61,630 nucleotides of DNA, from assembly GCF_030145145.1 (NCBI RefSeq), contig NZ_JAQYWD010000040.1, positions 1 to 61,630 on the forward strand. Direction: 5' to 3'. A program made the translations under genes and the position numbers. The notes under the pieces are model-generated. The model had not been told where the DNA came from and did no database searches. It worked only from the letters and a program-made list of their open reading frames with translations. Below are positions 6,883 to 30,217 of this stretch, in pieces; within the stretch, counting starts at the first letter, position 1; each line of letters opens with the position of its first letter. The DNA comes from Desulfobacula sp. Its GTDB lineage: Bacteria; Desulfobacterota; Desulfobacteria; Desulfobacterales; Desulfobacteraceae.

Positions 6883-7128
6883 CATCTGTGCTGTTTTGTC
6901 CACCCCGGTTTTCTGCGTCAATAATCTTGGATTCTCGGTGGGGCCTACCAACCTGACCGCTTCACGGGGGGTTGGCATACCGCATTCAACTTCGGGACAG
7001 ACAGGTACATACGCTGCAAACAGTCCAAGCGTTTGAGTCAGGAATCTATCATGAATGTGTCCACCGTCATAACGAACTTTATTTCCTAAAAGACAGGAGC
7101 TGATGCCTATTTTGATGGGTGTAAGCAT
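6883..7128 (-). pseudogene. DUF523 (TudS-type) gene, 3'-truncated
   Basis: The frame begins with an ATG behind GGAG and reads GISSCLLGNKVRYDGGHIHD and PVCPEVECGMPTPRE, the hallmark N-terminus of DUF523 proteins (thiouracil-desulfurase relatives with Cys ligands for a 4Fe-4S cluster). After about 82 residues it runs into antisense lipocalin sequence at 6881-6883; the frame stays open to 6808 only by chance. The normal protein is about 150 aa or longer, so half is missing. DUF523-DUF1722 genes often neighbour photolyase genes in aerobic Proteobacteria, which fits the island that follows. Confidence 0.8.
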
Positions 7129-7241
7129 TTGGATTCTCCATTAATCAAGATAAAACTGCCCAATATTATCAAGAGCTATGAGTGAATTATATAATTATCG
7201 ATTAACTATATTAGTTTTTGAAATAATTGACACTCATTTTC

Positions 7242-7271
7242 TTGATTAAACCGTCTTTTTATCGGTATAAG
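7242..7271 (+). promoter_or_regulatory. candidate sigma-70 promoter for the 7333 gene cluster
   Basis: TTGATT, 18 bases, TATAAG, about 60 bases before the ATG at 7333. A second TTGACA at 7227 lacks a good -10. Found by eye only. Confidence 0.3.
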
Positions 7272-7332
7272 TCATATACAGACAACATTTTCATTCTTTG
7301 ATTCTGACAACAGATTATTTCAGGGAGCCCGG

Positions 7333-8868
7333 ATGATTAACGTAAAACCCATTTTAGTGACAGGAGCAACCGGCTATGTTTCTGGCCGTCTTATCCCTTT
7401 ATTATTGGCAGACGGCTACAAGGTGAAAGCTATGGGGCGTTCCATACCCAAAATGACCGACCGGCCATGGGGGCAAAATAAAAATGTAGAACTGGTTAAA
7501 GGAGATATCCAGGATATAGCGTCGCTAAAAAATGCGACTAAAGGATGCGGGACTGTTTATTATCTTGTCCATTCTATGATTTCCCAAAAAGGCAAATACC
7601 GAGATGCAGACAAAACTGGTGCAAAGAACATGGTTCAAGCAGCCGCAGAGGAAGGATTAGAGCATATTATATATTTAGGTGGCCTTGGAGACATAAGCCA
7701 TAAAAATATCAGCAAACATCTTATTTCCAGAAATGAAGTTGGTAAGATTCTCATGGAAGGACCTGTTCCAACAACGGTTCTTCGAGCTGCCATGATCCTG
7801 GGATCAGGCAGTGCCAGTTTTGAAATATTAAGATATCTTGCCGAGCGGTTGCCTGTAATGGTCACTCCTAAATGGGTAAGTATGCCCACCCAGCCGATAT
7901 CCATAACTAACGTTTTAGGATATTTAAAAGGCTGTTTAGAACACCCTGAAACAAAAGGAAAAACCTTCGATATTGGCGGACCTGACGTTGTCGCATATAA
8001 GGATCTGTTCCGAATCTTTGCCAATGAATCAAAATTACCAGTTCCATTTATGATTCCGGTCCCCGTATTGACGCCCAGATTATCATCTCTTTGGATTCAC
8101 CTTGTAACCCCGGTTCCAGCGGCCATCGCACAACCCTTAGCGGAAGGTTTAAGCGTTCCCACCACCTGCACAGAAGACAGCATTAAACAGATTATTCATC
8201 AGGATCTGATCTCATGTGCCGAGGCAATTCGCAGGGCACTTGAGCCGGTCATCCAGGAACAGGTCGACACCTGCAGGGCTGATGGAGGTAAAATCAAACA
8301 CCCTGAATGGTCACATTATGGAGACGCTTCCTATACAGGCGGGACCCTCTTTTCCTGTGGATATCAGGCTATTGTAAAAGGAACTCCCGGCGATCTATGG
8401 AAACCCATTGAAAAAATCGGCGGAAGGACAGGATATTATGGAGCAGATATATTATGGAAAATTCGTGGTATCATCGATACATTTGTCGGAGGTGTCGGAT
8501 TATCCGACAGCAGTCACTCGAAAAAAGCGCTAAGGGTTGGTGCCACAGTTGATTTCTGGAGAGTCCTTGAGATGGCACCTGAATCAAAACTGCTTTTACT
8601 GTCTGAGATGAAAGCTCCTGGGCAAGCACTTTTGGAACTAAGAATAGAGGACATGGATAATGGACAAAGCCAAATTATTTTGCTGTCACGTTTTCTGCCC
8701 AAAGGATTAATAGGTCTTTTATACTGGTATATTTTATTCCCATTTCACCAATATGTATTCATACAAATGTTAAAAGGACTGGTAACCGCTTCCGGTTTAA
8801 AATTGTTGACACAACCGGGAAAATATCATCCACACCCTTCAGATATCTGTCGGTGGTCGAACAAATAA
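7333..8868 (+). CDS. SDR-DUF2867 NAD(P)-binding protein
   Basis: An atypical short-chain dehydrogenase with Rossmann motif TGATGYVSG (residues 10-18) and a YYLVHSM segment in place of the usual active-site region, followed by a C-terminal DUF2867 domain (about 320-500; GKIKHPEWSHYGDASY, GGRTGYYGADILWKIRG). The 511-aa length is typical of this two-domain family. The likely role is NAD(P)H-dependent modification or binding of a small hydrophobic substrate; the substrate is unknown. GGGAG precedes the start. It heads a rightward set with the flavoprotein and PEP-synthase-like genes. In other bacteria this family recurs beside photolyase and cyclopropane-synthase genes (from memory). Confidence 0.8.
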   Translation: MINVKPILVTGATGYVSGRLIPLLLADGYKVKAMGRSIPKMTDRPWGQNKNVELVKGDIQDIASLKNATKGCGTVYYLVHSMISQKGKYRDADKTGAKNMVQAAAEEGLEHIIYLGGLGDISHKNISKHLISRNEVGKILMEGPVPTTVLRAAMILGSGSASFEILRYLAERLPVMVTPKWVSMPTQPISITNVLGYLKGCLEHPETKGKTFDIGGPDVVAYKDLFRIFANESKLPVPFMIPVPVLTPRLSSLWIHLVTPVPAAIAQPLAEGLSVPTTCTEDSIKQIIHQDLISCAEAIRRALEPVIQEQVDTCRADGGKIKHPEWSHYGDASYTGGTLFSCGYQAIVKGTPGDLWKPIEKIGGRTGYYGADILWKIRGIIDTFVGGVGLSDSSHSKKALRVGATVDFWRVLEMAPESKLLLLSEMKAPGQALLELRIEDMDNGQSQIILLSRFLPKGLIGLLYWYILFPFHQYVFIQMLKGLVTASGLKLLTQPGKYHPHPSDICRWSNK

Positions 8869-8886
8869 TTTTAATAGGATACTTTC

Positions 8887-9342
8887 ATGAGCGATAACAA
8901 AAAAGAAAAATTGAATAATATCTCTGAGCTATTTGAATCCCAGAGTCTTGCTGTACTCTCAACCCAGAAAAACGATCAGCCATATTCAAGTCTTGTTGCA
9001 TTTGCTGCAAGTTCCGATCTTGAATCTGTTTATTTTTTAACCCCCAATACAACCCGCAAATATGAGAACCTGATAACCAACCCCAAAGTCACTATACTGG
9101 TCAATAACAGCGTGAATCAAGCCGATGACATTTATAACGCAATTTCCGTAACCGGTATCGGAACTGCAGCAGTTGCAGCGGCATCTGACCGAACACAACT
9201 TTTAAACGTGTACTTAAAGAAACACCCTCATCTTAAAGGATTTTCGAAAGCGCCTACAACCGCTTTTATCTGCGTATCAATGAAGCGGTATTTTATGGTC
9301 AACCAGTTTCAGAATGTCGTTGAAATCCAGGTAAACTCATGA
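8887..9342 (+). CDS. PPOX-like FMN split-barrel flavoprotein
   Basis: A 151-aa pyridoxamine 5'-phosphate oxidase-like split barrel. The N-terminal pattern LAVLSTQKNDQPYSSLVAF, then FLTPNTTRKYENLITNPKV and the repeated SVTGIGTA strand, is the usual signature of FMN- or F420-dependent oxidoreductases or heme-binding relatives. The cofactor cannot be told from sequence alone. Its stop overlaps the next start by 4 bases (ATGA), so translation is coupled to the PEP-synthase-like gene. It lies 18 bases after the SDR-DUF2867 gene with AGGA as ribosome site. Confidence 0.8.
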   Translation: MSDNKKEKLNNISELFESQSLAVLSTQKNDQPYSSLVAFAASSDLESVYFLTPNTTRKYENLITNPKVTILVNNSVNQADDIYNAISVTGIGTAAVAAASDRTQLLNVYLKKHPHLKGFSKAPTTAFICVSMKRYFMVNQFQNVVEIQVNS

Positions 9343-11534
9343 AACCGGTCCTCGAGATAGAAGACTTTATAAATGCCGGTATTGACCAAGTCGGTGGAAA
9401 GGCTCTCTGCCTGGCCAAAATCCATGAACAGGGATTCATCGTTCCCAAAACAATTTGTATCCCTTGTCAGATATACGAAACTTATCTCAAACAGACCCGG
9501 CTTAAAAACACGATTCTTCTTGAGATCAACCGAAAGCCGTTCAAACATATGCGTTGGGAAGAAATCTGGGACATCTCCCTTCGGATCCGAAATTTATTTT
9601 TAACCACACCGATTCCACCGAACATCCAAAAAGACCTTTTTTCTTTAATCGTTGAATCCTTTGGGGATCATCCGGTTGCCGTAAGATCCTCGGCACCTGG
9701 TGAAGATAATGCGGCCAGCTCTTTTGCAGGCCTCCATGATTCTTTCCTGAACATTATCGGAGCCGATAATATTGTCAAACATATCCGGTTGGTATGGGCT
9801 TCGCTCTATTCAGATGCTGCGCTTTTATATCGAAAAGAGTTAGGGCTTGACATTCATACCAGCCAAATGGCGGTTGTTCTTCAGGAATTGATACCCTCTG
9901 ACAGGTCCGGTATCTTTTTTGGGTTGAATCCATCCAATTCAAACGAATCGGTTATAGAATCAGTCTATGGCTTAAACCAGGCCCTTGTAGATGGTGACGT
10001 TGAGCCGGATCGATGGATTTTAAGCCAATCTTCAGGCAAAATATTAAACCATATCGAACCTGTTCGAAAACAATACGCATACCCCAACGCACAAGGGGTT
10101 GGTTTCGCTGATTTGTCCGAAAGAAAGAATCAGACACCCCCTTTGGATGATCAGGAAGTTTTCCAAATATGGGAAACCGGCAGAAAAATGGAAGCATTGT
10201 TCGGCAGACCCCAGGATATGGAATGGACGTTTTGCAACGATCAGTTGATTATCCTTCAGTCAAGGCCGATTACCAGTGTTGGCTTTAAAGACTCCGATGA
10301 TAAAAGAAGCTGGTATTTAACATTGCATAGAAGTTACGAAAATTTAAAAAAATTATACGTTAAAATTGAACACCATTTGATTCCCCAGATGATTGACGAA
10401 GCAACGCGTCTGGGACAGATAAATTTTCAAACCATGACCACAAAACTGCTCTGTCAGGAGATAGAACAAAGACAAACGCTATATGATCATTGGGTAAAGG
10501 TTTACTGGGCTGAGTTTATACCCTTTGCCCATGGTATTCGATTGTTCGGGCAGGTTTACAACGATGCTGTCACACCGGATGATCCCTATGAGTTCATGGC
10601 CCTTCTTGAAAATACCGGCCTTAAAAGTATGGCCAGAAATCATCTGCTTGAAAAACTTGCCCAAATGATCCGGTGTAATATGGGTCTAAAAACGATGCTG
10701 GACGATGACATGATCCCAGAAATGGATCACCCCTTCAGGCGCCTGCTGGACAAATTTGTTGAAGAGTTTGGTGACCTTTCCTGCACCACCGGCAGCGGGA
10801 ACGAATGTCAGCATGGGAACAATGGTATTATCAGACTTTTGATCGAATTTGCAAAGCAGCCGCCCAGACAAAAACACACAGATGGACCTGATGTTAAGCG
10901 CCTTCAAGAAAATTATATGGACAGTTTCCCCGCCCCCAAAAAAAAGTTTGCAGCAGATGTACTTCATTTGGGACGTGAGAGTTATCGACTGCGGGACGAC
11001 GATAATATTCATCTGGGCAGAATAGAAGCCCGATTAATCGAATCGGTGTGGGAAGGGCAGTCCCGGCTGTCAGACCCCCTAATCGACACAGACGAACAAA
11101 AAATGCTCGCCCAAATCCCCGCCCTCAGCAGGGTGCCTGATGAACCATCGATATCCATTGAGCTAACCTTATCTGATAAGACGTCCAAGAGATGGTTCAA
11201 ATCCCGCCAGATCGTCGGTCATCCGGCAGGACCGGGTATCGCAACCGGAAAAGCAAAACGTATTCAAAATCCCCAGGACCTGCTGGATTTTAAACAGGGG
11301 GATGTCCTTGTCTGTTCGGGAGTGGATCCGAATATGACATTTGTAATACCGCTGGCATCCGCCGTAGTGGAAGAACGCGGGGGCATGCTCATTCACGGTG
11401 CCATTATTGCCAGGGAATATGGATTGCCCTGTATTACAGGCGCTTCCCAGGCCATGCAGCTTATTAAAAATGGCGATCAGATAACGGTTGACGGATATCT
11501 TGGCATTATCACATGTAAAACAGATGAACTGTAA
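9339..11534 (+). CDS. PEP-synthase-like dikinase (ATP-grasp + swivelling His domain)
   Basis: The N-terminal ATP/pyruvate-binding domain of the PEP synthase/PPDK family is clear (AVRSSAPGEDNAASSFAGLH about residue 120; ILQSRPITS about 305). The C-terminal phosphohistidine domain has the motif IHGAIIAREYGLPCITG near residue 690. The C-terminal PEP-binding barrel of PpsA is absent. A divergent middle region of about 330 residues takes its place, giving the domain order of rifampin phosphotransferase-type enzymes. It is therefore more likely a phosphotransferase acting on an unknown small molecule than a gluconeogenic PEP synthase. It is translationally coupled to the flavoprotein gene before it. 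Confidence 0.75.
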   Translation: MKPVLEIEDFINAGIDQVGGKALCLAKIHEQGFIVPKTICIPCQIYETYLKQTRLKNTILLEINRKPFKHMRWEEIWDISLRIRNLFLTTPIPPNIQKDLFSLIVESFGDHPVAVRSSAPGEDNAASSFAGLHDSFLNIIGADNIVKHIRLVWASLYSDAALLYRKELGLDIHTSQMAVVLQELIPSDRSGIFFGLNPSNSNESVIESVYGLNQALVDGDVEPDRWILSQSSGKILNHIEPVRKQYAYPNAQGVGFADLSERKNQTPPLDDQEVFQIWETGRKMEALFGRPQDMEWTFCNDQLIILQSRPITSVGFKDSDDKRSWYLTLHRSYENLKKLYVKIEHHLIPQMIDEATRLGQINFQTMTTKLLCQEIEQRQTLYDHWVKVYWAEFIPFAHGIRLFGQVYNDAVTPDDPYEFMALLENTGLKSMARNHLLEKLAQMIRCNMGLKTMLDDDMIPEMDHPFRRLLDKFVEEFGDLSCTTGSGNECQHGNNGIIRLLIEFAKQPPRQKHTDGPDVKRLQENYMDSFPAPKKKFAADVLHLGRESYRLRDDDNIHLGRIEARLIESVWEGQSRLSDPLIDTDEQKMLAQIPALSRVPDEPSISIELTLSDKTSKRWFKSRQIVGHPAGPGIATGKAKRIQNPQDLLDFKQGDVLVCSGVDPNMTFVIPLASAVVEERGGMLIHGAIIAREYGLPCITGASQAMQLIKNGDQITVDGYLGIITCKTDEL

Positions 11535-11557: not shown

Positions 11558-11971
11558 ATGATTCGCTGCCTTAAAGTATATGGCGTTGCATTATCTGCAT
11601 TTCTTGTCGTTGATCTGATATGGATCGGTTTTATTGCCCGAACCTTTTATAAGGATCAACTGGGTTTTATTCTGGCATCCTCCCCCAATTGGATAGCAGC
11701 CATCATTTTCTACCTGATGTTCGTTGCCGGTCTATTGTTTTTTGTTGTCTTGCCTGGATTGAAAGACAATTCTTTAAAAATGAGTTTTTTGCGAGCCGCC
11801 GTTTTTGGGGCCCTGACCTACGGGACCTATGATTTAACGAACCTTGCACTCATTGAAGGCTGGCCGGTTTTGGTCACTGTTGTGGACATAATCTGGGGAA
11901 TGGCATTGAGCGTAATTGTAAGCCTGGTAAGCGTGAAGGCCGGCAGGCATTTTGATTCACCGTCAATTTAA
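11558..11971 (+). CDS. DUF2177 membrane protein
   Basis: A 137-aa inner-membrane protein with four predicted hydrophobic helices and the DUF2177 pattern: VVDLIWIGFIARTFY near the N-terminus, then AAVFGALTYGTYDLTNLALI and WPVLVTVVDIIWGM. Function is unknown. The family recurs in clusters with cyclopropane-synthase-like, FAD-oxidoreductase and photolyase genes. GGGAG precedes the ATG; it is the last gene of the first rightward run of the island. Confidence 0.85.
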   Translation: MIRCLKVYGVALSAFLVVDLIWIGFIARTFYKDQLGFILASSPNWIAAIIFYLMFVAGLLFFVVLPGLKDNSLKMSFLRAAVFGALTYGTYDLTNLALIEGWPVLVTVVDIIWGMALSVIVSLVSVKAGRHFDSPSI

Positions 11972-12469: not shown

Positions 12470-13375
12470 CTATGCACTTGAACCATACTTTTGTGACAGA
12501 TGTGTCAGGGTCGCATCTTTTTTTTCCCAAAGCCCATTTAACCAAACCTGAAAACGGGATTTAAATTCTGAATCCATAAAATAGTCACCCAGGATCTCTT
12601 CGGTAACTGGCAGTTTTTCAACTCTGACAACCACTTCGTTGACTTCTCCGCAAAAAAACTGCCAGATTGCCTTAGCTCCCTGGGGATAATAAATGGTAAC
12701 ATTCAAAATTGCCTGCAGCTGCGTTCCTAAGGCGTCCAGGACAAGCGCTGTCCCACCCGCCTTAGGGCGCAAAATATTTTTATACGGAGACTGCTGATCC
12801 TTTTGCTTTTGGGGTGTAAACCTTGTTCCTTCCACAAAATTCATCACAGATACCGGAAGTTCCTTGAACTTTTCACAGGCTTTTCGGGTAATCTCTAAAT
12901 CTTTTCCCTTGAGATGCCTATTTTTTTCTAAGAATTCTTTTGAATACCGTTTCATAAAAGGGAACTCCAGGGCCCACCAGGAAAAACCCAGTACCGGAAT
13001 CCAAATCAGTTCCTGCTTGATAAAAAATTTCAAAAAAGGAATCTTGTCAAGAAAGATCTTTTCAAGAACAAGGATATCAACCCATGTCTGATGATTACAA
13101 ATGACCAAATAAGAATCCGATTTTTTTAAATTTTCAAGCCCCTGGACATCCCACCGGACATTCTGCATCAGATCAATGAGTCGGTTATTCCAGCTATTCC
13201 ATCTGGCGCAGACATATGTGACGGATTTGTTACAGATTTTACGAAATTTGGCAGCAGGTACTAAAAGCTTGAAAATCCCTGATATAAAAAGTGGGATCAT
13301 CCAGAACAACGTATTCATTATCAAGAGGATTAGAAATGCAATAGCGCGAAATTGGCGGGTTATTTTTTTCTTCAC
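12470..13375 (-). CDS. 1-acyl-glycerol-3-phosphate acyltransferase-like (PlsC/YihG type)
   Basis: A membrane-anchored acyltransferase of about 301 residues. The catalytic NHX4D-type block appears as CNHQTWVDILVLE (about residue 93), and the substrate motif as FVEGTRF (about 189). An N-terminal hydrophobic helix (residues 12-33) anchors it. It resembles the YihG/LCLAT subgroup of PlsC proteins, which acylate lysophospholipids. The start codon is GTG behind a purine-rich AAGAGAGAG. In this island the job may be remodelling membrane phospholipids whose acyl chains the neighbouring enzymes alter; that is inference. Confidence 0.85.
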   Translation of the reverse strand: MKKKITRQFRAIAFLILLIMNTLFWMIPLFISGIFKLLVPAAKFRKICNKSVTYVCARWNSWNNRLIDLMQNVRWDVQGLENLKKSDSYLVICNHQTWVDILVLEKIFLDKIPFLKFFIKQELIWIPVLGFSWWALEFPFMKRYSKEFLEKNRHLKGKDLEITRKACEKFKELPVSVMNFVEGTRFTPQKQKDQQSPYKNILRPKAGGTALVLDALGTQLQAILNVTIYYPQGAKAIWQFFCGEVNEVVVRVEKLPVTEEILGDYFMDSEFKSRFQVWLNGLWEKKDATLTHLSQKYGSSA

Positions 13376-13470: not shown

Positions 13471-14841
13471 TCAATGTCTATTTTTTTCAATATCAGACCG
13501 AATTTGGGCATGATATTTTTCTGTAATAGGATAAAAAGAAATAATCAGAATGGACAGGCCATTGCAGATAGAAGGCACCAACGCATATAGAACCCTCAGA
13601 ATATCGACTGTTTTAATATCCTGTTCAACGTTCGGCTGATAGCCGGTACTGCCCAGCAGCAAAAGCCCAATTCCAATCCCAAATGCAGCCGCCATTTTCT
13701 TTGAAATAGACCATAGGCCAATATACCGTCCCTCTCGTCTTTGACCGCTCATCAGTTCATCATAGTCAATCACATCCGCCTGAATGGATGACGGCAGTGC
13801 CAATCCTGCACCAAAACCAATTCCTGAAACAAATACCAGTATGCCGTAAAGTTCAACGTCTCCCGGTCCTAAAAAATATACACCCGTAAAAGCACCGGTG
13901 TTGATGATCATCGATATGATCCATGCATTTTTTTTGCCGATCTTCTTTGAAATCCCAACCCAGAAAGGTAAAAATATAATCCCGGTTATGAAATAAATTA
14001 GAAGAAATCCTTCGGCATGGTCTGCCTGTAATACATACTCCACGTAATATAAAATAAGGGTTGCCGGCAGGTTACTTCCAAAGGCACTGATGGTATACGC
14101 TAGTATAAGAATAACAAACGGCCGATTTTTCATGACATCCGCCAGCCCCTGAAAAAAAAGATCTTTTCGGACGTTCGGATAAATAAGGACTTCTTTTACC
14201 TTCCATATACAAATAACGGACGAAAGGAGAATCATCGGTGCATAAACATATGCCATGATAGAGAATCGAAGGTTTTCAGAAGATTTTTGGTTCAGCATTT
14301 CAAGCGCCTGGTCAATCAATACAGGAAAAGACGCCGCCAGAAGTGTTCCACCGATAAGGAATCCATCCCTGAGACCGAACAGCGCTGTACGCTCGTGGTA
14401 ATGGGTCGTCAGTTCAGGACCAAGAGATTCATATGGGATGGTAATCAATGTCCAAAACAAAAAAAGGACAAACAACCAGAACCCAAAATAGAATGTCAGA
14501 TTTGTCCCGGAAGAAACCGGCGGTATAAAGAGAAAAAGTATGGAAATACTTAAACCGGCAGCGCCGAGAGCAATAAATGGCTTTCGCCTTCCAAACCGTG
14601 TTGATATCTTGTCGGACGCATAACCGATCACAGGATCTGTCAGTGCATCAAAAATCCTTACTGCCATCAACAGCATTCCCACAGTTGATATACTGATTCC
14701 CATGGTATCACTGTAAAATTTGGGCAGATAAACATAGACAGGAATACCGATAACGGCTAATGCCATTGCCGGAAATGCATATGAAAACCGTGTAACCCAT
14801 GAAAGGGGGATGTAAGGACTTTTTTTAATTTGGTTGGCCAT
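13471..14841 (-). CDS. MFS transporter, GPH (MelB-like) family
   Basis: A 456-aa, 12-helix transporter of the glycoside-pentoside-hexuronide:cation symporter family. Seen are DALTDPVIGYASDKISTRFG (the GPH loop 2-3 signature, about residues 50-75) and RRKPFI. GPH members typically couple sugar or related solute uptake to Na+ or H+, but members in photo-oxidative stress clusters have no proven substrate. The ATG overlaps the stop of the upstream chalcone-isomerase-like gene (TAATG), showing one operon. It precedes the acyltransferase by about 95 bases. Confidence 0.8.
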   Translation of the reverse strand: MANQIKKSPYIPLSWVTRFSYAFPAMALAVIGIPVYVYLPKFYSDTMGISISTVGMLLMAVRIFDALTDPVIGYASDKISTRFGRRKPFIALGAAGLSISILFLFIPPVSSGTNLTFYFGFWLFVLFLFWTLITIPYESLGPELTTHYHERTALFGLRDGFLIGGTLLAASFPVLIDQALEMLNQKSSENLRFSIMAYVYAPMILLSSVICIWKVKEVLIYPNVRKDLFFQGLADVMKNRPFVILILAYTISAFGSNLPATLILYYVEYVLQADHAEGFLLIYFITGIIFLPFWVGISKKIGKKNAWIISMIINTGAFTGVYFLGPGDVELYGILVFVSGIGFGAGLALPSSIQADVIDYDELMSGQRREGRYIGLWSISKKMAAAFGIGIGLLLLGSTGYQPNVEQDIKTVDILRVLYALVPSICNGLSILIISFYPITEKYHAQIRSDIEKNRH

Positions 14842-15440
14842 TATATTTTCCCAAGAAGTCTGTCTCGAAAGCCCACATCTATCGGATTTTCACCTATCCA
14901 GATCGAGAACAGCGCTTTGGAAAATTCTATCCCTTCAATGGTGCCGAGAGGGATTGTGTTGTAGGTCAATGTTGTTCCTTTCCCCGGAATATAGGTCAAC
15001 GCATACCGATCTCCAGAATTAACATCTCTGTATAACCGGTTTAATTGATTTATCTTTGGATAAAGTCGATTGTAAACCTCATTGCTCACAGATTCTTTTA
15101 TCTTTATTGTTGTTGCATCAGCAAATTTACTTGCAGAAATGCCTACCCGGTAGTCCAGAACCAGATGTCTGGGTATATTTTTAAGCGCTTGATCTGATCT
15201 GATATCTTCCGGCAGATAAAGCGCACCGGCATATGCCTCTATAAATACAAGATATCTCAATAATGCTGTACCTTTGAGTTGAAGCTGATAATCCGAAACC
15301 GTCAGTATTTTGTAAAAGGATGTTCCATCAACGTTTATCGTCTGAGCATACACCACACTTTTTGAAGACAGCAGTATAAACATAAGGGACAGGTTTATAA
15401 ACCGCAAAGCAAATTTTTTTATGTCGTCTGATATTTTCAT
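14841..15440 (-). CDS. chalcone isomerase-like periplasmic protein
   Basis: A 199-aa protein with an N-terminal hydrophobic segment (about residues 15-32, probable signal peptide) and the bacterial chalcone-isomerase-like fold: GTSFYKILTVSDYQLQLKGTA, then LYLPEDIRSDQALKNIPRHL and a C-terminal FSKALFSIWIGENPID. Bacterial members probably bind fatty acids rather than flavonoids. The family recurs with FAD oxidoreductase, DUF1365 and cyclopropane-synthase genes. It is the first gene of the leftward run with the GPH transporter, acyltransferase and the 111-aa protein. Confidence 0.8.
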   Translation of the reverse strand: MKISDDIKKFALRFINLSLMFILLSSKSVVYAQTINVDGTSFYKILTVSDYQLQLKGTALLRYLVFIEAYAGALYLPEDIRSDQALKNIPRHLVLDYRVGISASKFADATTIKIKESVSNEVYNRLYPKINQLNRLYRDVNSGDRYALTYIPGKGTTLTYNTIPLGTIEGIEFSKALFSIWIGENPIDVGFRDRLLGKI

Positions 15441-15664: not shown

Positions 15665-15951
15665 TTTACCACCTCATTGCTTCGGGTTAATTGAAATTAT
15701 ATTCGGTTAATTAAAATATAAACTAAGTCTGAATTCCAGTATTTCAATAAGAGCAAAAAAAGGGTTTAATGATAGGTTAAAACTATTATTTTTTGGCTCT
15801 AATATTGATATACGGCAATCGTATGAACCTGTTACCAGGCCAAAGATAAAATAAAGATTGAAATTTCTTCTCCATCGCGATTAAATAAGTCCATTAAAGG
15901 CAGCACCCTGTGATGGATACAAACGTATGCTGGAATTAAAGGACGGTTCTC

Positions 15952-17232
15952 GTGAATCTCATCAATAAGAACAACCTGGATATTGCCGTGATCGGCTCTG
16001 GTATCTCCGGAATCTGCAGCGCATATCTGCTTCAACACCGCCACAACGTCTCTCTTTTTGAAAAAAACGATTATTTTGGCGGTCATACCCATACGGTTAT
16101 GATTCCTGAGGGACCAGACAAAGGAACCCCTGTAGATACCGGCTTTATTGTGTTAAATGAACGGACATACCCCAATTTCATTGATTTTTTGAATCAACTC
16201 GGGGTTGAAAAATGCCGGACCAACATGTCATTCAGCTATTATGATCAAAAAACAAAACTTTACTATGCCAGTAATAACCTGAACAGTATATTTGCCCAGC
16301 GACGCAACCTGGTTAAACCCCGTTATCTCAGGTTTGTATATGAGATGGTTCAGTTTATTAAAATTCTTCGCAAGACCTATCTTGAGGGTCTTCTTGAAGA
16401 TATCACTCTGTCTGAATATGTAGAAAAAAAAGGCCTTCATCGCGAAGTGGTTGACCAGTTTATCATTCCCATGGCCGCTGCTATCTGGTCCGGTTCAGAC
16501 CTCCAGATGGGTAAATTTCCTATCCGCACATTTGCCCAATTTTATGAAAATCATGGTCTTTTAGCGGTGACAGGACACCCCCCATGGTACTTTGTCAAAA
16601 ACGGCAGCCATACCTATGTGAATGCCTTTTTAAAATCCTTTAAAGGGAAACCGATAAAATCGTCAAAAATAATATCCATTTCACGACAAAACGCAAAGCC
16701 TGAAATCCATTTCGAAAATAGTGCGCCACAAACCTTTGATGCGGTTATCATTGCAACCCACGCAGACCAGGCACTCAAGCTGCTGGAGAACCCCAGTAAA
16801 AATGAAGAACGGCTTCTGGGAGTGTGGTCCTATTCCAATAATAAAACCTTTTTACATACAGACAAAACGGTCATGCCGCCGAATAAACGCGCCTGGGCCA
16901 GCTGGAATTATACACGATATAACCCCATCGATTCAATGGCGCCGGTGACGCTCAGTTATGATATGACACGGCTTCAGAAGCTTGATACCCAAAATTCTTA
17001 TTTTGTGACACTGAACCCTCAACGCTCAATACCCCAGGCGCATATTATAAAAGAAATAAATTATACCCACCCACAATATTCTTTTGAGGCATTCGACTCC
17101 CAGCGAGACCTGCCGTCATTAAACGAAAACCAAAACATATTTTTTTGCGGCAGTTATTTCGGGTATGGGTTTCACGAGGATGGTGTGAATTCGGCGCTTG
17201 CTGTGGGTAAAAAGTTTGGAGTGTCGCTATGA
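15952..17232 (+). CDS. NAD(P)/FAD-dependent oxidoreductase (amine-oxidase fold)
   Basis: A 426-aa flavoprotein with the dinucleotide-binding motif IGSGISGICSAYLL (about residues 14-27), then EKNDYFGGHTHTV and a C-terminal FAD signature FFCGSYFGYGFHEDGVNSAL. It is the family that precedes DUF1365 and cyclopropane-synthase-like genes in many Proteobacteria, where it is proposed to desaturate or oxidise fatty acyl chains; the reaction here is inferred. Translation starts at a GTG with AAAGGA upstream. The stop overlaps the next start by 4 bases, so the two products are made together. Two further members lie at 26155 and 33197. Confidence 0.85.
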   Translation: MNLINKNNLDIAVIGSGISGICSAYLLQHRHNVSLFEKNDYFGGHTHTVMIPEGPDKGTPVDTGFIVLNERTYPNFIDFLNQLGVEKCRTNMSFSYYDQKTKLYYASNNLNSIFAQRRNLVKPRYLRFVYEMVQFIKILRKTYLEGLLEDITLSEYVEKKGLHREVVDQFIIPMAAAIWSGSDLQMGKFPIRTFAQFYENHGLLAVTGHPPWYFVKNGSHTYVNAFLKSFKGKPIKSSKIISISRQNAKPEIHFENSAPQTFDAVIIATHADQALKLLENPSKNEERLLGVWSYSNNKTFLHTDKTVMPPNKRAWASWNYTRYNPIDSMAPVTLSYDMTRLQKLDTQNSYFVTLNPQRSIPQAHIIKEINYTHPQYSFEAFDSQRDLPSLNENQNIFFCGSYFGYGFHEDGVNSALAVGKKFGVSL

Positions 17233-20662: not shown

Positions 20663-20809
20663 GGGACACCTTTTTGATTCGTTACCACATCCAATTTTAA
20701 ATATGATCATGATTTAAAGGACTTCAACCAAATTAAAAAATAGTTTATAATTCAATTTGTCTTTTTTTTCAGCAAGAACGGCTATACACCCAATGGAGAA
20801 ATAAAAAAA

Positions 20810-21613
20810 ATGACAATTAAAAAGAATACCGGTTTAAGTGTTTTATATATTCCTCACGGTGGCGGCCCCTTACCTTTACTTGATCACAAAGGACATCTTG
20901 AGTTAATTCAGTTTCTAAAAAAAATCCCTGAGCAGCTCGAACCACCAGACGACATCATTATTGTCAGCGCCCATTGGGAGCAGTCAATTCCCACCCTTAC
21001 CGCAAGTGCTTCTCCGCCCTTGATTTATGACTATTATGGGTTTGCACCGGAAGCTTATGAAATCGACTACCCTGCGCCGGGAAACCTCCGGATTGCAGAA
21101 AAATTGCTTTCTCTTCTATACGAACAAAACATTCAGGCCCAACTTGATAAACGTTGGGGGTTTGACCATGGCATGTTTGTTCCCCTTAAGCTGATGTACC
21201 CGGATGCCCGGATACCCTGTATTCAGTTGTCATTGGTTAATGGTTTGGACCCGTTGCAGCATATCAAATTAGGATGCGCATTAAGGGCATTGGGAGATGA
21301 AAAAATATTAGTTCTTGGATCAGGGTTTTCTTTTCACAATATGAAAACGTTTGGAGAAACAGGACAGGATCCAAAAAACATTGAATTTGATCAATGGCTC
21401 GTAAAAACAATGACGGATCCTCTTTTGTCACCTTCTGAGAGGAAAAACAGACTGGTTAACTGGCAAAACGCTCCCCATGCTCGATATTGTCATCCAACAG
21501 AGGAGCATCTTCTGCCCCTGCATGTTTGTTACGGCATTACTGAAATGCCGGCCAGAGTGGTTTTTCATGGATCTGTTCTTGGCAAAAAAAGCTGCGCTTT
21601 CCTTTGGCAGTGA
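20810..21613 (+). CDS. DODA-type extradiol ring-opening dioxygenase (LigB-like)
   Basis: A 267-aa class III extradiol dioxygenase. Signature segments are IPHGGGPLPLLD (first metal His, about residue 16), ISAHWE-like IIVSAHWEQ (about 52), WGFDHGMFVPLKLMYP (about 120) and the C-terminal HARYCHPTEEHLLPL (about 220), matching YgiD/DODA proteins. These cleave catechol-type rings with O2 and a non-heme metal. The natural substrate here is unknown. It is transcribed alone, divergently from the SRPBCC-SDR gene, and has a weak GGAG site 11 bases upstream. Confidence 0.85.
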   Translation: MTIKKNTGLSVLYIPHGGGPLPLLDHKGHLELIQFLKKIPEQLEPPDDIIIVSAHWEQSIPTLTASASPPLIYDYYGFAPEAYEIDYPAPGNLRIAEKLLSLLYEQNIQAQLDKRWGFDHGMFVPLKLMYPDARIPCIQLSLVNGLDPLQHIKLGCALRALGDEKILVLGSGFSFHNMKTFGETGQDPKNIEFDQWLVKTMTDPLLSPSERKNRLVNWQNAPHARYCHPTEEHLLPLHVCYGITEMPARVVFHGSVLGKKSCAFLWQ

Positions 21614-21680: not shown

Positions 21681-22175
21681 TTATTTTTGAGCTTTTTTCA
21701 GAAAACCGCTCAATTGGGCGACATGTTTTTTTTCCTCTTCAATAATCTCATCTATCTTTGACCGTCCCAGCTTGGCAGGAACAATATCTTTGAGACCGAT
21801 ATAAAACAGGATGGATTCTTTTTCTAACCCAATGGCTGTTTCAATGACCTGAGCCATTGTTTCTTCACCGGTTAATTGGTCGGCCACATCCGGGTTCCCC
21901 TCACCCCCATGCGCATCCGCCATGGCTTTCAAATACGAGACCAACTCTTCTTGGGGATCAAATACCGTCTGTGATTTTTCCATGTCAGACACGGCAACTT
22001 TCATTTCTTCAAACCCTGATTGATGTCTGTCTTCCATACGGGCAATCGATTCAAGGAACTCTTTGTTCGCCTTATTCTCCTGAAGAGAAGCTGCTTTCCT
22101 GTAAAATGCAGCACCGTTTTTCTCTATTTGAACGGCCATTTCAAATACTTCACCAGCATTAAAGTCGTATGACAT
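21681..22175 (-). CDS. rubrerythrin-like ferritin-family diiron protein
   Basis: A 164-aa four-helix diiron protein with the expected ligands: an EKNGAAFYRKA Glu in helix A (about residue 18), ExxH as MEDRH, a Glu in helix C (GLEKESILFY) and EEEKKHVAQL at the C-terminal ExxH. It has no rubredoxin domain, so it is a rubrerythrin-like or ferritin-family protein of the sort sulfate reducers use to reduce peroxide or handle iron. AAGGAGAG precedes the start. It is the last gene of the photolyase/selenoprotein run, 24 bases after the selenoprotein stop. Confidence 0.85.
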   Translation of the reverse strand: MSYDFNAGEVFEMAVQIEKNGAAFYRKAASLQENKANKEFLESIARMEDRHQSGFEEMKVAVSDMEKSQTVFDPQEELVSYLKAMADAHGGEGNPDVADQLTGEETMAQVIETAIGLEKESILFYIGLKDIVPAKLGRSKIDEIIEEEKKHVAQLSGFLKKAQK

Positions 22176-22199: not shown

Positions 22200-22751
22200 T
22201 CACAACGGCTGCAAATTATCAACAGCGCTGATCAATTCATTTATTTTAGGATGGTCCCCTGCTTTTTTACCAGAAAAAAAATAGCAGACAGCACCTGATA
22301 CGTCAATCAAAATCGCCCCCCCCAACTGCATGGCGCTGCCTTGAACTGACCCCTGTCGATGGCCTTTTTTCAGTGCAGATGCCGCCTTGAAGACAGAACT
22401 GATGCTCATAAAACCTGCCAGCCCCTTTGAAAAGCCTAAAAGAGAGAAAGCTGCCAGAGAAGGGTCAGAAAAAAGAAGGCCGCCATATCCGGTTGTTTTT
22501 TTAAACGTTTCAAAATGACGGGGGTCACCTGAACCAATGACCGCAAGCGTTACATTTTTGTCATTAAAATATTGAGAATTTTCTGCCAGTTCAGCCACCT
22601 GCTGACGGCAGAACACTCAGCCAAAATGACGGACAAAAACCAATAGAGCGGGTGTTCCCTGCCATAGGGTAGATAATTTCACATGCTCATTTCTATCATT
22701 TAGGACACCCAATTCTCCAAGATCTTCAACTGATACATTATTTGTTTCCAT
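22200..22751 (-). CDS. selenocysteine Prx-like2 (AhpC/TSA family) protein
   Basis: The frame runs from the ATG at 22751 through an in-frame TGA at 22617-22619 (codon 45) to 22200, 183 residues. The TGA replaces the first Cys of the Prx-like2 redox motif: RHFG-U-VFCRQQ, where relatives have RHFGCPFCR. Frame, composition and similarity continue on both sides, and a textbook bacterial SECIS hairpin follows. The product is a thioredoxin-fold thiol/selenol peroxidase or lipid-quinone reductase relative in the cytoplasm. An annotation made without Sec recoding would start at the GTG 22616 and lose the active site. It lies between the photolyase and rubrerythrin-like genes. Confidence 0.88.
22581..22613 (-). 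promoter_or_regulatory. bacterial SECIS element
   Basis: Beginning 4 bases after the TGA: outer 7-bp stem TTCTGCC/GGCAGAA and inner 5-bp stem TCAGC/GCTGA with apical loop AGGTG. Both stems are perfect and the loop carries the G residues expected for SelB binding, at the right distance from the UGA. Confidence 0.85.
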
Positions 22752-22768: not shown

Positions 22769-24133
22769 TTAAATCATTTGGTTTATTCTGCTGACATACC
22801 CTTTAATGTCGCATTTTCGCTCTAACCCAGATGCTGCCATATAGCGAACTTTGCCAAAGACAGGTCTTTCAAACCAGGCACGATCATGCAGCCCGAAAAT
22901 CCATCCAACACCTGCATGGGAATTGGGATCCCTGCCGTCTAAAAAATATGTATTGTTGATTGCCAATAAAGTTTCCCAGGCCTTTTCAGGTGTTTCACTC
23001 CACTCAAGAATTTTTTTCCCCCAATACATCCGCATATAATTGTGCATGAAGCCTGAAACCTTCATTTCGCGCATTGCTGCATTCCAGTAAATATCGTGTG
23101 TCTGACTGTTCTCAAGCTCAGATTTTGAATACACAAACGTGCGGGTATCTTTTTTATGGGCATCCAAGGTTTTTCTGGCCCAGTTCGGGAGGCACTCCAG
23201 AGAACCATAGGCCGGGTTGAAATAGACAAAATTCATGGCCAGCTCTCTTCGAACAATCAATTCCTCCAGATAACTTGCCTTGGCCTCTTCAAGCGAATCC
23301 TGGCAGCTTTTAATTTTAAGCGCCAGATAAAGAGAAGAAACTTGACCAAAATGAAGATAAGGGCTCATGAAGGATACATCTAATGTTTTGGGCTGATTCC
23401 GGTGCGCCACATATCGCTCGAAACAATTTTCAACAAAATAGTTAAACCGGTCTTTTGCCTGGGATGTCCCTCCCTTGAAAAATTTGGGGACAGCCGGAAC
23501 ACTTCGGTCAATATCCAGCTGATCCAATACCGTTTGAATATTATCAAGCTCAAGTCCTTTTAAAGGAATAGACAAGGATGAATGCGATACAATTCTCGGT
23601 ACCAGATCTTTCAGATACATATCAAGCTGGCGGTTTATTTTCCGACGTATCGTATACGCCGCATATTCTGCCTTGTCCGAGACCTCCTGGATTGGAACAA
23701 TCGCATCACTTTCAACCTGCACAACAGCACAGGCGGCTTTTTTTGCAATTTTTTGCCGCCACCCTCTTTGATGCCTCAAATATCCCCTGTCGCAGACAAT
23801 CATGGATGCATTGCGTCCAAGATCCAGGACCACCTGTACCGGATCCCCATACCGGACAACCATCTGGATGCCCCTTGATGCCAGCTGTTGTTTTGTCTCT
23901 TTTAATCCTTCCAGCATGAAGGTGTAATGCCTCAGGTTGGCCTCCGGATAATCATCGGTCAAGGCAAATAACACAAGGATCGGTCGGCCCTGAATATTTG
24001 CCTGCTCTATGGCATACTCTACCGCATGATTATACTCAGCCCGCTGTGCCTGCTGCATCCAATACAATACAAACCTACCGGAAGATGGGGGTAACTGGTT
24101 TAAGTCCTGTATGCGGGATGCTTGAATCGTCAT
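22769..24133 (-). CDS. phr: class II CPD photolyase
   Basis: A 454-aa DNA photolyase that repairs cyclobutane pyrimidine dimers with FADH- and light. Class II features are clear: SFMSPYLHFGQVSSLYLALK, LEELIVRRELAMNFVYFNP, THDIYWNAAMREM, MHNYMRMYWGKKILEWSE and DGRDPNSHAGVGWIFG, followed by AWFERPVFGKVRYM. The N-terminal antenna domain is intact. The stop is 17 bases upstream of the selenoprotein ATG, so they share a transcript with the rubrerythrin-like gene. It is an unusual possession for an anaerobe and implies light exposure. Confidence 0.93.
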   Translation of the reverse strand: MTIQASRIQDLNQLPPSSGRFVLYWMQQAQRAEYNHAVEYAIEQANIQGRPILVLFALTDDYPEANLRHYTFMLEGLKETKQQLASRGIQMVVRYGDPVQVVLDLGRNASMIVCDRGYLRHQRGWRQKIAKKAACAVVQVESDAIVPIQEVSDKAEYAAYTIRRKINRQLDMYLKDLVPRIVSHSSLSIPLKGLELDNIQTVLDQLDIDRSVPAVPKFFKGGTSQAKDRFNYFVENCFERYVAHRNQPKTLDVSFMSPYLHFGQVSSLYLALKIKSCQDSLEEAKASYLEELIVRRELAMNFVYFNPAYGSLECLPNWARKTLDAHKKDTRTFVYSKSELENSQTHDIYWNAAMREMKVSGFMHNYMRMYWGKKILEWSETPEKAWETLLAINNTYFLDGRDPNSHAGVGWIFGLHDRAWFERPVFGKVRYMAASGLERKCDIKGYVSRINQMI

Positions 24134-24335: not shown

Positions 24336-25355
24336 TTAAACCAGTTTAGAAATATCATATGGGGTGATATCAATCAATCCATTCCGCCATCTGCCCGGCC
24401 AGCAATTCACCCCCCCAGCAGCACCCAGCAGGGCCCCCAAAACGGATCCCCTTCCAGCATTATCGCCCCCGCACATCGTGTTTGCAATCAAGCCAGACGC
24501 CGATGCCTGACCGTATTTTAAGGCCAGATAAAGGGTCGCAGGTATTGACTGATCCATGTAACAGGCGGATGAAAAATGCTTTCCAACGACGATATGATCC
24601 GGAAATTCAATTAAAGATTCCAATGAAGTTGCGGACACATTTCCCCCTTTGTATCGTCCATGGGCAGCAATGGCATTTTCAAGGGTTTCCCCATGAAGCA
24701 CATCAAGGATAATCTGCGCTATAATTTTTCCGCCATACTGCATGGCCGGTCCCCCATGAGTCAAGTTCATATGACTTAAAGCTGTTTTTAACGCATATTC
24801 CCTGTCTTGTCCCAATACAATGAGAAGCGGCAGCATGAGACTCAATCCGCCGATATGGTTTTCATCCTTTCTACCGCATTCCATCACGTCACACCCTTTA
24901 CCGTATTGGGTAAAAAAATGTCTGAGATATTCCTCAACATAGGTATCATTATGATTGCCCGGAGTGGTCATAAAGGTGACCATATGATTCAACCATAGAC
25001 GCTCATCATATGCGCGATTATGTTGAAACAGCAGCAGTTCCCGGGCAAGTTTTAGATTGAGGGTATTTTCTCCGGCTTTCAGGAATTGATGATAATGTAT
25101 CCCTCGCTGGCCCCAAAATTTTGATTGGTTGTGCAAAATATCAACGCGCTTATTTCGTGGAGAATACGATGACCGCCATAGAATCGAATCGGGGTGCGGG
25201 TTGCGGGGTGCCACATAATCCTCGACCAATCCGTAATCTCTTTTCAAGGCGTTGGTATCGTAGTACCAATGAACCGGCATTGCCAGCGCATCTCCAATGA
25301 AAAGCCCAACCAATGCGCCGGCTGCCCGGTCCTGGAATGTTAATTCATTCAACAC
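24336..25355 (-). CDS. ADP-ribosylglycohydrolase family (J1-crystallin-like)
   Basis: A 339-aa member of the ADP-ribosylglycohydrolase superfamily. Metal-site segments are GALVGLFIGDALAMPVHWYY (residues 14-33) and CGGDNAGRGSVLGALLGAAG (about 295). The Gly-Gly-Asp-Asn form is that of J1-crystallin-like members rather than DraG (which has DTD), so the substrate is uncertain. Start is a GTG with AAGGA 8 bases before it. It follows the SDR gene by 5 bases and so belongs to the same operon. Confidence 0.85.
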   Translation of the reverse strand: MLNELTFQDRAAGALVGLFIGDALAMPVHWYYDTNALKRDYGLVEDYVAPRNPHPDSILWRSSYSPRNKRVDILHNQSKFWGQRGIHYHQFLKAGENTLNLKLARELLLFQHNRAYDERLWLNHMVTFMTTPGNHNDTYVEEYLRHFFTQYGKGCDVMECGRKDENHIGGLSLMLPLLIVLGQDREYALKTALSHMNLTHGGPAMQYGGKIIAQIILDVLHGETLENAIAAHGRYKGGNVSATSLESLIEFPDHIVVGKHFSSACYMDQSIPATLYLALKYGQASASGLIANTMCGGDNAGRGSVLGALLGAAGGVNCWPGRWRNGLIDITPYDISKLV

Positions 25356-27487: not shown

Positions 27488-27526
27488 CATTTAGTTAGCG
27501 CCATCTTAACAAAATGGCGATGGAGA

Positions 27527-27829: not shown

Positions 27830-28110
27830 GATTTCTCCTCCATGATTCAGGTTTATGAAATAATAAATTAGCCATATAATCCTACTTAAAGTAGTGTAAA
27901 ACTCAATACCCAGATCTGAATCAACTCAGTTTATGAAAGGTTAAAGAGTTTTGGAAGTAGGGCTCTTTAAATTATATGATTCATCACAATACGGTTAATC
28001 AAGAAAAATGTCACGCGATATCTCACCTTATGATTATCGACAAGTCGGGGAAGAAAAATCAATTTGGGGTTCCTGATCTACATCTGTTTTCTCGGCATAG
28101 GAAGATCGTT

Positions 28111-28872: not shown

Positions 28873-29089
28873 GCTTACTCCTTACTACCGAGTTGATTAG
28901 TTTTGAGATATTGAATCACTTAACATTTCAGTCGCTTTGTGTCTGTCTTGAATTGCTGTGGTCTGATACCGGTCTTCCTTGAAATTGCCTTGAATATTTG
29001 TAACTATCTTTCTATAAGGGTTGGTGCATTTGGCTGATACGATTCCATCCCTATTCAACCTAATACCAAAACGCTTGTTACAATTGCTA

Positions 29090-29686
29090 CTATTTGTATG
29101 ATCTAATCCAATCAATTTCAAGTTGGAATTTTTCAGCTTTTTTATTTGATATCAGGAATCCGATTTGTTGAATTTTTTCAGGATGCAGTGGCTTTAGGTT
29201 TTCAAGAATACGCCCTCTGAACACCGGCACACACTCATGGAAGGGAACGCTAACTATTGTCCAAGTATTCGGTTGTGTTTCAAACTGATATCGATACGAT
29301 ATACCATCGAAACGATCATTTGTTCTTATCCGAAATTGGTATTTTTTCCCATCTCCTTTTACTCGAAGCAGAATGCCATTATATCCATCCAACTCATATG
29401 AGCGCGGCAGTGTTCGCATTGATGCAAAGCCACCATTGTTTTCCAAAGAAACAATACCTTTAAAAATAATTAAATTGTTGCGGAAGACAATTTCACTTTC
29501 TGATAACCCACCCATAACGCCATCATTTACGATCTGCCAATTTTTAATTTCATCTGTATTCTTGAAGTCAAATATAAGCTTTTCCGCTTTATTTATGACG
29601 TTATACGTTTCATTTGCCCGAGCTTCTGACAATAAAAATAATAATGACACCACCATTAATATAAACTGTATTCTGACAGGTTTCAC
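29090..29686 (-). CDS. CIA30-domain secreted protein
   Basis: A 198-aa protein with an N-terminal signal peptide (hydrophobic residues 7-20) followed by a CIA30/NDUFAF1-type beta-sandwich: IFDFKNTDEIKNWQIVNDGV, MGGLSESEI and GILLRVKGDGKKYQFRIRT. Bacterial CIA30 proteins have no fixed function; the mitochondrial relative assists complex I assembly. Start codon is GTG with GAAGG upstream. The family also turns up near photolyase/lipid-stress genes in other bacteria (from memory). Confidence 0.8.
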   Translation of the reverse strand: MKPVRIQFILMVVSLLFLLSEARANETYNVINKAEKLIFDFKNTDEIKNWQIVNDGVMGGLSESEIVFRNNLIIFKGIVSLENNGGFASMRTLPRSYELDGYNGILLRVKGDGKKYQFRIRTNDRFDGISYRYQFETQPNTWTIVSVPFHECVPVFRGRILENLKPLHPEKIQQIGFLISNKKAEKFQLEIDWIRSYK

Positions 29687-29800
29687 TATTTAGCCTTCCA
29701 TTTCTTATTAAGGAAAGAATCTTGAGCACTTTATATAGACCATCTATAAGAAGGTCAGTGCAATTGGGTATCCGCGCTTTTGTCTGATTCTTTGATAAAA

Positions 29801-30217
29801 CTAGTCTGTGACATCCTTTTGTATAGCCAGATAATGGCTAATCCTGTCATTCTTACCATTGATAGGAACGATTTTCCATTCCATCATAAATTCGGAGCCA
29901 TCCCGCCTGTAGTTCAAGGCTCTTCCATGGAACAGTCTGCCGGCCCTGATATCTTCATTCAGTTGTTTGATAACAGCTGGATCGGTTTCTTTTCCCTGAA
30001 GCATTGACGGTGACTTTCCCAGGACTTCATGGGGACCGTAACCTGTCATTTCGCAGAATGCTGGATTAACATACACAATCGGGTAACCTTTACTGGCTTC
30101 TGTAATGATTATTGAGTTAAAGGACTCTTCCATAGACTGCTCCAACAACCGTTTCATAATGAATTTATAGTTATCGTCATGGTCAAAAAGATCAAATATT
30201 GATTTTGGATTTTCCAT
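29801..30217 (-). CDS. stand-alone LOV-like PAS protein lacking the photoactive Cys
   Basis: A 138-aa single PAS domain with an N-terminal helix, the layout of short LOV proteins. It keeps YVNPAFCEMTGYGPHEVLG, LQGKETDP and NYRRDGSEF plus a C-terminal AIQKDVTD whose Gln is the flavin-contacting residue in LOV domains. The LOV motif GxNCRFLQG reads GKSPSMLQG (residues 67-75), so the adduct-forming Cys is Pro70, and the second Asn (FWN) is Met. It may bind flavin without an adduct, or another ligand. No output domain is fused, so it would act through a partner. AGGAG precedes the ATG. Confidence 0.75.
   Translation of the reverse strand: MENPKSIFDLFDHDDNYKFIMKRLLEQSMEESFNSIIITEASKGYPIVYVNPAFCEMTGYGPHEVLGKSPSMLQGKETDPAVIKQLNEDIRAGRLFHGRALNYRRDGSEFMMEWKIVPINGKNDRISHYLAIQKDVTD

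Follow-up and report, generated by a model that had tools for sequence, protein, structure and literature searches.

Does the run of genes at positions 6883-30217 of this Desulfobacula sp. contig specify a pathway for furan fatty acids (FuFA), and what would such a pathway do in a member of a sulfate-reducing family? The window, meaning the whole stretch that was analyzed, is an entire 61,630-base contig (label C32) of a 5.66 Mb genome (label G000). The original prediction had read these genes as a photo-oxidative-stress island resembling sets controlled by RpoE-ChrR or LitR in aerobic Proteobacteria, and all 15 of the island genes it named were found to carry the stated domains or features. 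We consider it fairly probable that the island represents a Desulfobacteraceae form of the FuFA stress island, kin to the ChrR and LitR types and used at oxic-anoxic boundaries. Pfam searches covered 50 of the 117 listed open reading frames (ORFs) in the window, and NCBIfam searches covered 10 proteins.

The reference point is the pathway of Rhodobacter sphaeroides. There, UfaM adds a methyl group to vaccenate, desaturation by UfaD (RSP1091) follows, and UfaO (RSP1090), which is a DUF1365 protein, forms the furan; the three genes together are sufficient for FuFA, the UfaD product requires O2, and the furan ring oxygen derives from O2 (PMC7380195). The genes RSP1091-1087 adjoin rpoE-chrR (PMC3818230), and, after exposure to singlet oxygen, ChrR turnover requires the furan-fatty-acid genes (PMC6852236). 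In Chlamydomonas, singlet oxygen induces a DUF1365 gene (PMC4067076). A search by title and abstract start, with most subscription journals outside its coverage, found no published report of the furan pathway in sulfate reducers.

The core of the island is an operon on the plus strand. Its first gene (15952-17232) encodes a UfaD-like FAD oxidoreductase of the amine-oxidase family (426 aa, PF01593), and its second (17229-19190) encodes a single 653-aa frame in which a UfaO-like DUF1365 domain (PF07103) is joined to a UfaM-like methyltransferase of the CFA family (PF02353, CMAS). The stop codon of the flavoprotein and the start codon of the fusion overlap as ATGA. The DUF1365 domain is full length, covering positions 1-233 of the 235 in PF07103 with 244 bits, and it has 12 invariant columns over 45 aligned sequences from several phyla. 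Identities to a ChrR-linked set in Pseudoalteromonas were 40.5% for UfaD, 37.0% for UfaM, and 29.2% for UfaO. By domain, all three furan-pathway functions are predicted in the window core, and the flavoprotein and fusion match the families of the published pathway, which agrees with the furan-fatty-acid-like core of the original prediction. A good structure model of DUF1365 (mean pLDDT 86.6) had no match to a solved structure at E <= 0.001. Its best matches include lipocalin/FABP- and nitrobindin-like barrels (E 0.02-0.04) alongside thioesterase-like folds, and we treat the resemblance to barrel folds as a lead only.

To place the core among related loci, two peptide patterns were searched against a genome collection, giving 60 pattern matches and 45 loci with a DUF1365 relative. 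This search is biased to close relatives, and neighbour counts among the 45 loci are limited to flanks of at most 10 kb. A flavoprotein homologue lies immediately upstream of DUF1365 on the same strand in all 45 loci, although it is cut by the contig start in L074 and divided between frames in L048 and L070. The linkage of the core is above chance, and the conserved linkage that had been expected from gene-neighbourhood comparison in Desulfobacterota was found. The fusion is complete (653-679 aa) in 27 loci, absent in 13, frameshifted in one (L050), and unclear in one (L070), while three (L045, L053, L060) read from DUF1365 into the methyltransferase until the contig ends. The figure of 27 in 45 is not a census, because the pattern search favours close relatives. 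Complete fusions occur in three cultured species (Desulfobacter latus, Desulfospira joergensenii, and Malonomonas rubra), so the fusion is not an assembly artefact. The closest named relative at the core is a metagenome-assembled genome (MAG), Desulfobacteraceae bacterium OB14, with 90% identity over the DUF1365 query; after it, by DUF1365 similarity, come Desulfobacula MAGs, D. latus, and D. joergensenii.

Distribution was evaluated in 58 related genomes (own genome counted; 33 in a one-per-genus subset) and in a phylum-wide even draw of 237 genomes with completeness of at least 90%. DUF1365 was present in 12 of the 58, eight from the host's own family and four from other families of the order. 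A frame of at least 654 aa was seen in all eight of the former and in none of the four others. In the phylum draw, 20 genomes had DUF1365, eight of them with an open frame of at least 621 aa. The window falls among the Desulfobacteraceae on a tree of the 45 DUF1365 rows, where the fused state needs three changes (one gain plus two losses would do). This tree carries a long-branch warning for its rows from Pseudomonadota, Bacteroidota, and Spirochaetota. One clade nested among the fused forms is made up of five Desulfobacterales loci (L044, L046, L047, L048, and L054), a pattern that would fit loss or replacement of the UfaM half there.

The host genome also has a second cassette, on contig C81, with a flavoprotein, fusion, and SRPBCC-SDR protein that are 75%, 71%, and 68% identical to those of the window, as well as rubrerythrin-like and DUF523 pieces. 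Divergent second copies were observed elsewhere in the genome for the core (C81) and for the dikinase-containing module described below (C76), both at 60-75% identity, and for the ovothiol synthase gene OvoA (C69). This suggests either parallel acquisition or an old duplication.

The methyltransferase half carries a residue that may separate it from ordinary cyclopropane synthases. In the E. coli CFA synthase, bicarbonate is bound by Cys139, Glu239, and His266. An alignment with the solved CFA structure 5z9o shows that the window enzyme retains the Cys and Glu, whereas Gln540 stands in place of the His; a MAFFT alignment also puts Gln540 in the His column. Glutamine was found at this site in all 39 CFA domains that are either fused to DUF1365 (30) or follow it in an operon (9), and the ChrR-linked UfaM of Pseudoalteromonas is of the same Gln type. 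Histidine was found in all eight other CFA proteins of the same loci (H-type). The signature disfavours a plain cyclopropane-synthase identity for the fused methyltransferase, and we infer that Gln is a candidate marker of the UfaM-type reaction. One of the nine operon-following Gln-type enzymes, from the cyanobacterium Microseira wollei, comes after a desaturase gene; in this locus (L062, 3594-8981), a flavoprotein, DUF1365, a fatty acid desaturase, and the Gln-type CFA stand in a row.

Upstream of the core lies a second group of genes. A 106-aa DUF523 gene (6808-7128, minus strand; PF04463) is divergent from an operon that encodes an NmrA/SDR-DUF2867 protein (7333-8868; PF05368 and PF11066), a PPOX-like protein (8887-9342; PNPOx, PF01243), and a dikinase-like protein with PPDK_N and PEP-utilizer domains (9339-11534; PF01326 and PF00391), all on the plus strand. 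DUF523 was observed in at least 7 of the 45 loci, a lower bound since the gene sits right at the limit of the flank covered (10 kb). PPOX adjoins the dikinase in six loci (L033, as a 41-aa piece, and L040, L050, L052, L055, and L070). The layout of the dikinase appears to be an ATP-grasp domain, a mobile phospho-His domain with H686, and a helical middle, the last drawn from a low-confidence model (mean pLDDT 66.9). H686 is invariant in seven of seven dikinase sequences. The top Foldseek matches of that model were 5hv1-5hv3 (E ~1e-33), which are rifampin phosphotransferase (RPH), while in sequence matches to solved structures no best stretch spans the middle domain. Against the rifampin phosphotransferase model NF041857, the protein scored 275.5 bits, below the cut-off of 999. 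It is best described as a putative phosphotransferase with a rifampin phosphotransferase-like architecture, and we claim no resistance role.

All four of these genes lie together near the core in the window and in two other genomes (G008 and G033). The SDR-DUF2867, PPOX, and dikinase genes also occur together away from the core, on contig C76 of the host genome and on contig C43 of G036, the latter with a photolyase. In G044, DUF523, SDR-DUF2867, and a photolyase are together, with no dikinase match. Using a cut-off of E <= 1e-100, the dikinase was detected in 8 of the 58 genomes, and seven of these have DUF1365 (p 1.9e-5; per genus 4.8e-4). A COX1-family gene was found in 10 of the 12 DUF1365 genomes versus 16 of the 46 others (p 3e-3; per genus 6.9e-4), and the host genome has one. 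The original prediction had placed its listed genes in a single island. The linkage of the core holds, but a description as two modules inherited together fits the locus better, with some of the outlying genes falling away, as described below.

Downstream of the core is a peroxiredoxin-like gene of the AhpC/TSA_2 type (22200-22751, minus strand, with ATG at 22751 and stop at 22200) that contains an in-frame TGA at 22617-22619 within a U-V-F-C motif. Six of six sequences keep the TGA, which occupies the position of the catalytic Cys, and five of six keep the second Cys. A tRNA-Sec was found in the genome with 76.5 bits (gathering threshold 47); matches below gathering were common in 14 control genomes and were disregarded. 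A hairpin follows the UGA in all three sequences folded, and it beats shuffles in the window copy only (z -4.5, with ~0.2 in the other two). The predicted selenoprotein is thus supported by the kept TGA and the tRNA. In D. latus (L037, 13458-13859), the motif reads U-V-F-S, with the second Cys replaced by Ser.

Beside it is a putative class II CPD photolyase (22769-24133, minus strand). TIGR00591 (phr2) was the best of five NCBIfam families and its match spans the whole model, at 498.7 bits under a cut-off of 550.05. At E <= 1e-50, the photolyase was detected in 6 of the 58 genomes, five of which have DUF1365 (p 9e-4; per genus 2.8e-3). At the neighbour threshold, it was seen in none of the eight nearest loci.

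The prediction had further stated that neither ChrR nor LitR accompanies these genes, and this was borne out across the genome. ChrR (TIGR02451) had no match in the host genome, with a Caulobacter control positive. Over the 58 genomes, five had matches below the cut-off and none above it, and none of those five has DUF1365. For LitR we used a single LitR-like query, a protein of locus L045 that matches MerR over its cut-off and a B12-binding domain weakly (19.3 bits vs 32.1). At E <= 1e-20, this one query with its weak B12-binding match found nothing in the 58 relatives, own genome included. Among ten chosen genomes at E <= 1e-10, five matched, including the query's own: four cassette hosts of Desulfuromonadales type and one Ramlibacter, with none of the three Desulfobacteraceae. 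Members of this LitR-like family lie inside cassette loci L045, L049, L051, and L071.

We also looked for a shared promoter. A candidate site before the core, picked by eye (15857-15889, plus strand), consists of a TTGAAA-like box, an 18-bp spacer, and a TAAATA-like box, with GCGRT ahead of the second box. Of ten upstream regions inspected, six yielded such a site, and none was evident in L034, L037, L038, and L040; leave-one-out scores were 12.6-31.3. The pattern fits both cassettes of the host by construction, having been built from those sites. No other site in the window was above threshold, and elsewhere in the genome there were three matches, each with three mismatches, compared with two for a reversed control. 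At this control level, the pattern is not a regulon marker. A simple ECF11-like pattern, which we take to be TGATC...TAA, was missing before 15952 and 7333, and had 10 scattered matches in the 30 kb scanned.

The island overlaps several known systems, including, as had been anticipated, both an RpoE-ChrR island and cassettes with a LitR-like gene. Like the Rhodobacter pathway, it has the same three domain families, with the flavoprotein ahead of DUF1365 and a methyltransferase of the CFA family, and in Paracoccus, also of the Rhodobacterales, a GPH-related transporter, an SDR, and DUF2177 come after UfaD-UfaO. The window differs in fusing UfaO to UfaM, in having no ChrR match in its genome, in belonging to a sulfate-reducing family, and in carrying the dikinase module and the selenoperoxiredoxin. 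The RpoE-ChrR island on plasmid pPBSW1 of Pseudoalteromonas sp. Bsw20308 has DUF523 (as a DUF523-DUF1722 protein), photolyase, SDR, FAD oxidoreductase, DUF1365, a Gln-type CFA, and chalcone isomerase in one run. Unlike the window, it has separate UfaO and UfaM, a sigma factor and ChrR at its head, and DUF2878 and DUF3833. The two photolyases align only locally, with 27.5% identity over 149 aa.

In the cassette of Desulfuromonadales and Malonomonas rubra (L041, L045, L049, L051), the UfaO-UfaM fusion (cut by the contig in L045), the flavoprotein, and DUF2177 are shared, and some loci also have chalcone isomerase and ADP-ribosylglycohydrolase-like neighbours. Unlike the window, this cassette has DUF1295 and often DUF2878, and a LitR-like MerR protein whose B12-binding match is weak occurs within the locus in L045, L049, and L051 and in the Malonomonas genome. 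Arabidopsis offers a parallel in AtUFAMD1 (AT3G23510) and AtUFAO1, predicted FuFA enzymes that also involve a fusion of UfaM. There, one protein matches UfaM and UfaD with UfaO separate, whereas the window fuses UfaM to UfaO; fusions thus do occur in the furan pathway (PMC10940516). Rifampin phosphotransferase (5hv1) shares with the window dikinase an ATP-grasp domain, a swivelling phospho-His domain, and, in the low-confidence model, a helical middle, but the dikinase falls far under the RPH sequence cut-off.

Genes around the two modules recur near the core to differing degrees. The two-domain SRPBCC-SDR protein (19232-20710, minus strand; PF10604 and PF00106), convergent to the core, was near it in seven of the eight nearest loci and 9 of 45 overall. 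The GPH-type transporter (MFS_2; 13471-14841, minus strand; TIGR00792, 251.2 bits against a cut-off of 231.35) neighboured the core in 10 of 45 loci, and the chalcone-isomerase-like gene (14841-15440, minus strand; PF16036), which is also present in the Pseudoalteromonas ChrR island, and the DUF2177 membrane protein (11558-11971, plus strand; PF09945) in 12 each. The PlsC-like acyltransferase (12470-13375, minus strand; PF01553) and the rubrerythrin-like protein (21681-22175, minus strand; PF02915) were each seen in two loci. A LigB/4,5-DOPA-dioxygenase-like (DODA-like) gene (20810-21613, plus strand; PF02900; NF007914 at 131.8 bits, under a cut-off of 233) was seen in one. Pfam also identified an ADP-ribosylglycohydrolase-like gene (24336-25355), CIA30 (29090-29686), and a lone 138-aa PAS domain (29801-30217). 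The last two lie ~12 kb from DUF1365, farther than the 10 kb of flank covered at the named loci; a wider view of 12 loci, with some stretches of ~18 kb, gave no match for CIA30 and one for PAS (33%). The PAS gene was rejected as a LOV photoreceptor, with no cysteine at the LOV site as judged by what we take to be the LOV cysteine motif.

Just outside the island is an OvoA ovothiol synthase (4414-6534, plus strand; TIGR04344 and TIGR04345 over cut-off). This genome, with two copies, is the only one of the 58 with OvoA over the cut-off, so we rejected OvoA as an island member. PlsC, LigB, CIA30, PAS, and OvoA are treated as neighbours. The dikinase-like, LigB/DODA-like, ADP-ribosylglycohydrolase-like, and OvoA genes are additions to the original gene list. 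That list had also placed two lipocalins beyond the island; one was identified by Pfam (35236-35820), and a second was not found among the 50 scanned ORFs. An ORF that overlaps the lipocalin (35795-36265) scored 17.3 bits for SRPBCC, a weak match below the cut-off. The run at 32458-36265 as a whole holds a third amine-oxidase-like flavoprotein (33197-34522), a weak DUF523-like match, a weak c-type cytochrome match, the lipocalin, and the weak SRPBCC match, and is possibly a further lipid-oxidation unit. At the left contig end, an ORF with the zinc-ribbon of an IS1595-type transposase was observed (114-653).

By analogy with the characterized systems, we infer the furan product, the order of steps, the O2 dependence, and any role of light or singlet oxygen in this host as follows. 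The C-terminal half of the fused protein would methylate a mono-unsaturated acyl chain of the membrane (the UfaM step), the flavoprotein would add a second, conjugated double bond (the UfaD step), and the DUF1365 half would put in an oxygen atom from O2 and close the furan (the UfaO step), so that the substrate would leave one end of the fusion for UfaD and then return to the opposite end. Both UfaD and UfaO require O2 in Rhodobacter (PMC7380195), so furan lipids would form here only when cells meet O2. This would presumably occur at low O2, at oxic-anoxic boundaries, in cells that also have a COX1-family oxidase. The furan may quench or report singlet oxygen or radicals, and with no ChrR, the lipid could serve as a quencher or as input to another sensor. 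The cassette would in this way give protection or a signal when light and O2 coincide or when radicals cause stress. Peroxides and DNA lesions would be dealt with by the selenoprotein peroxiredoxin, the photolyase, and rubrerythrin, and the SDR-DUF2867, PPOX, and dikinase module probably modifies a related small molecule or lipid.

A number of observations weigh against this account. UfaO is 29.2% identical to its counterpart in the ChrR-linked Pseudoalteromonas set, which was the reference here in place of the laboratory-tested R. sphaeroides or R. palustris enzymes. DUF1365 is patchy in the host's own genus (4 of 26 genomes). A HMMER alignment to 6bqc has a gap that moves the His two residues off Q540. 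Five of the eight H-type CFAs sit in loci with an unfused DUF1365 and no Gln-type protein, so the Gln signature follows linkage and lineage, perhaps also reaction. In the nested clade of five Desulfobacterales loci, the flavoprotein and an unfused DUF1365 have no CFA near them except an H-type one, encoded upstream or on the opposite strand, so not every locus has the three-enzyme set. The co-occurrence p-values ignore the tree except through the one-genome-per-genus counts, and COX1-family matches can include NO reductases. Growth of the host is also probably anaerobic, while UfaO and UfaD of Rhodobacter need O2 (PMC7380195). The original description of a probable anaerobe nonetheless needs care, as the genome has a COX1-family gene. 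Furan lipids in anaerobes also have a precedent, in that a paper by White et al. from 2005 on the anaerobe Dehalococcoides reportedly names furan fatty acids in its title.

The core could instead yield methyl-branched or conjugated acyl chains only, stopping under anoxia at the product of UfaM or of UfaM and UfaD, with DUF1365 idle or in another role. The host comes from a sulfate-reducing family, and methyl-branched acids are classical for Desulfobacter. The O2-dependent formation of the UfaD product in Rhodobacter (PMC7380195) would also fit such a stop. We nevertheless regard this as unlikely, given the 12 invariant columns of DUF1365 over 45 sequences, its in-frame fusion, and the COX1-family genes in 10 of 12 DUF1365 genomes, which suggest some O2 use by the hosts. 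A rather stronger candidate, though still a tentative one, is that the island answers O2 or peroxide generally and not light or singlet oxygen, with the photolyase an unrelated neighbour. The genome has no ChrR or LitR match, the PAS protein has no cysteine at the presumed LOV site, the selenoperoxiredoxin and rubrerythrin families act on peroxides, and the photolyase was seen in none of the eight nearest loci at the neighbour threshold. However, five of the six photolyase genomes have DUF1365, even where the genes are unlinked, the same cassette has a LitR-like gene close by in Desulfuromonadales, and the gene set is shared with a ChrR island.

That the genes merely accumulated by chance in a recombination hot spot, with no common function, we consider very improbable. 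The transposase-like ORF at the left end of the window and the rarity of the LigB, PlsC, and rubrerythrin-like genes within 10 kb of the core would suit it, but the core is linked in 45 of 45 loci over several phyla and the modules co-occur even when unlinked. The idea is largely refuted for the core and the second module, and may hold for the peripheral genes. Extending the FuFA stress island reading, one could also propose that DUF523, SDR-DUF2867, PPOX, and the RPH-like dikinase form a second furan-lipid branch that traps an oxidation product or signal, for example by phosphorylation, and that with the fused UfaO-UfaM they make up an O2-gated membrane alarm that replaces ChrR/LitR signalling in sulfate reducers; we view this as a speculative and doubtful extension.

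If the FuFA stress island reading is correct, cultured sulfate reducers are predicted to have an O2-consuming lipid pathway of aerobic phototrophs and their kin. The Gln residue is a candidate marker for telling UfaM-type from cyclopropane-forming methyltransferases, and the natural UfaO-UfaM fusion may make UfaO, a poorly understood enzyme, easier to study. The co-inherited dikinase module points to a further step linked to furan lipids.

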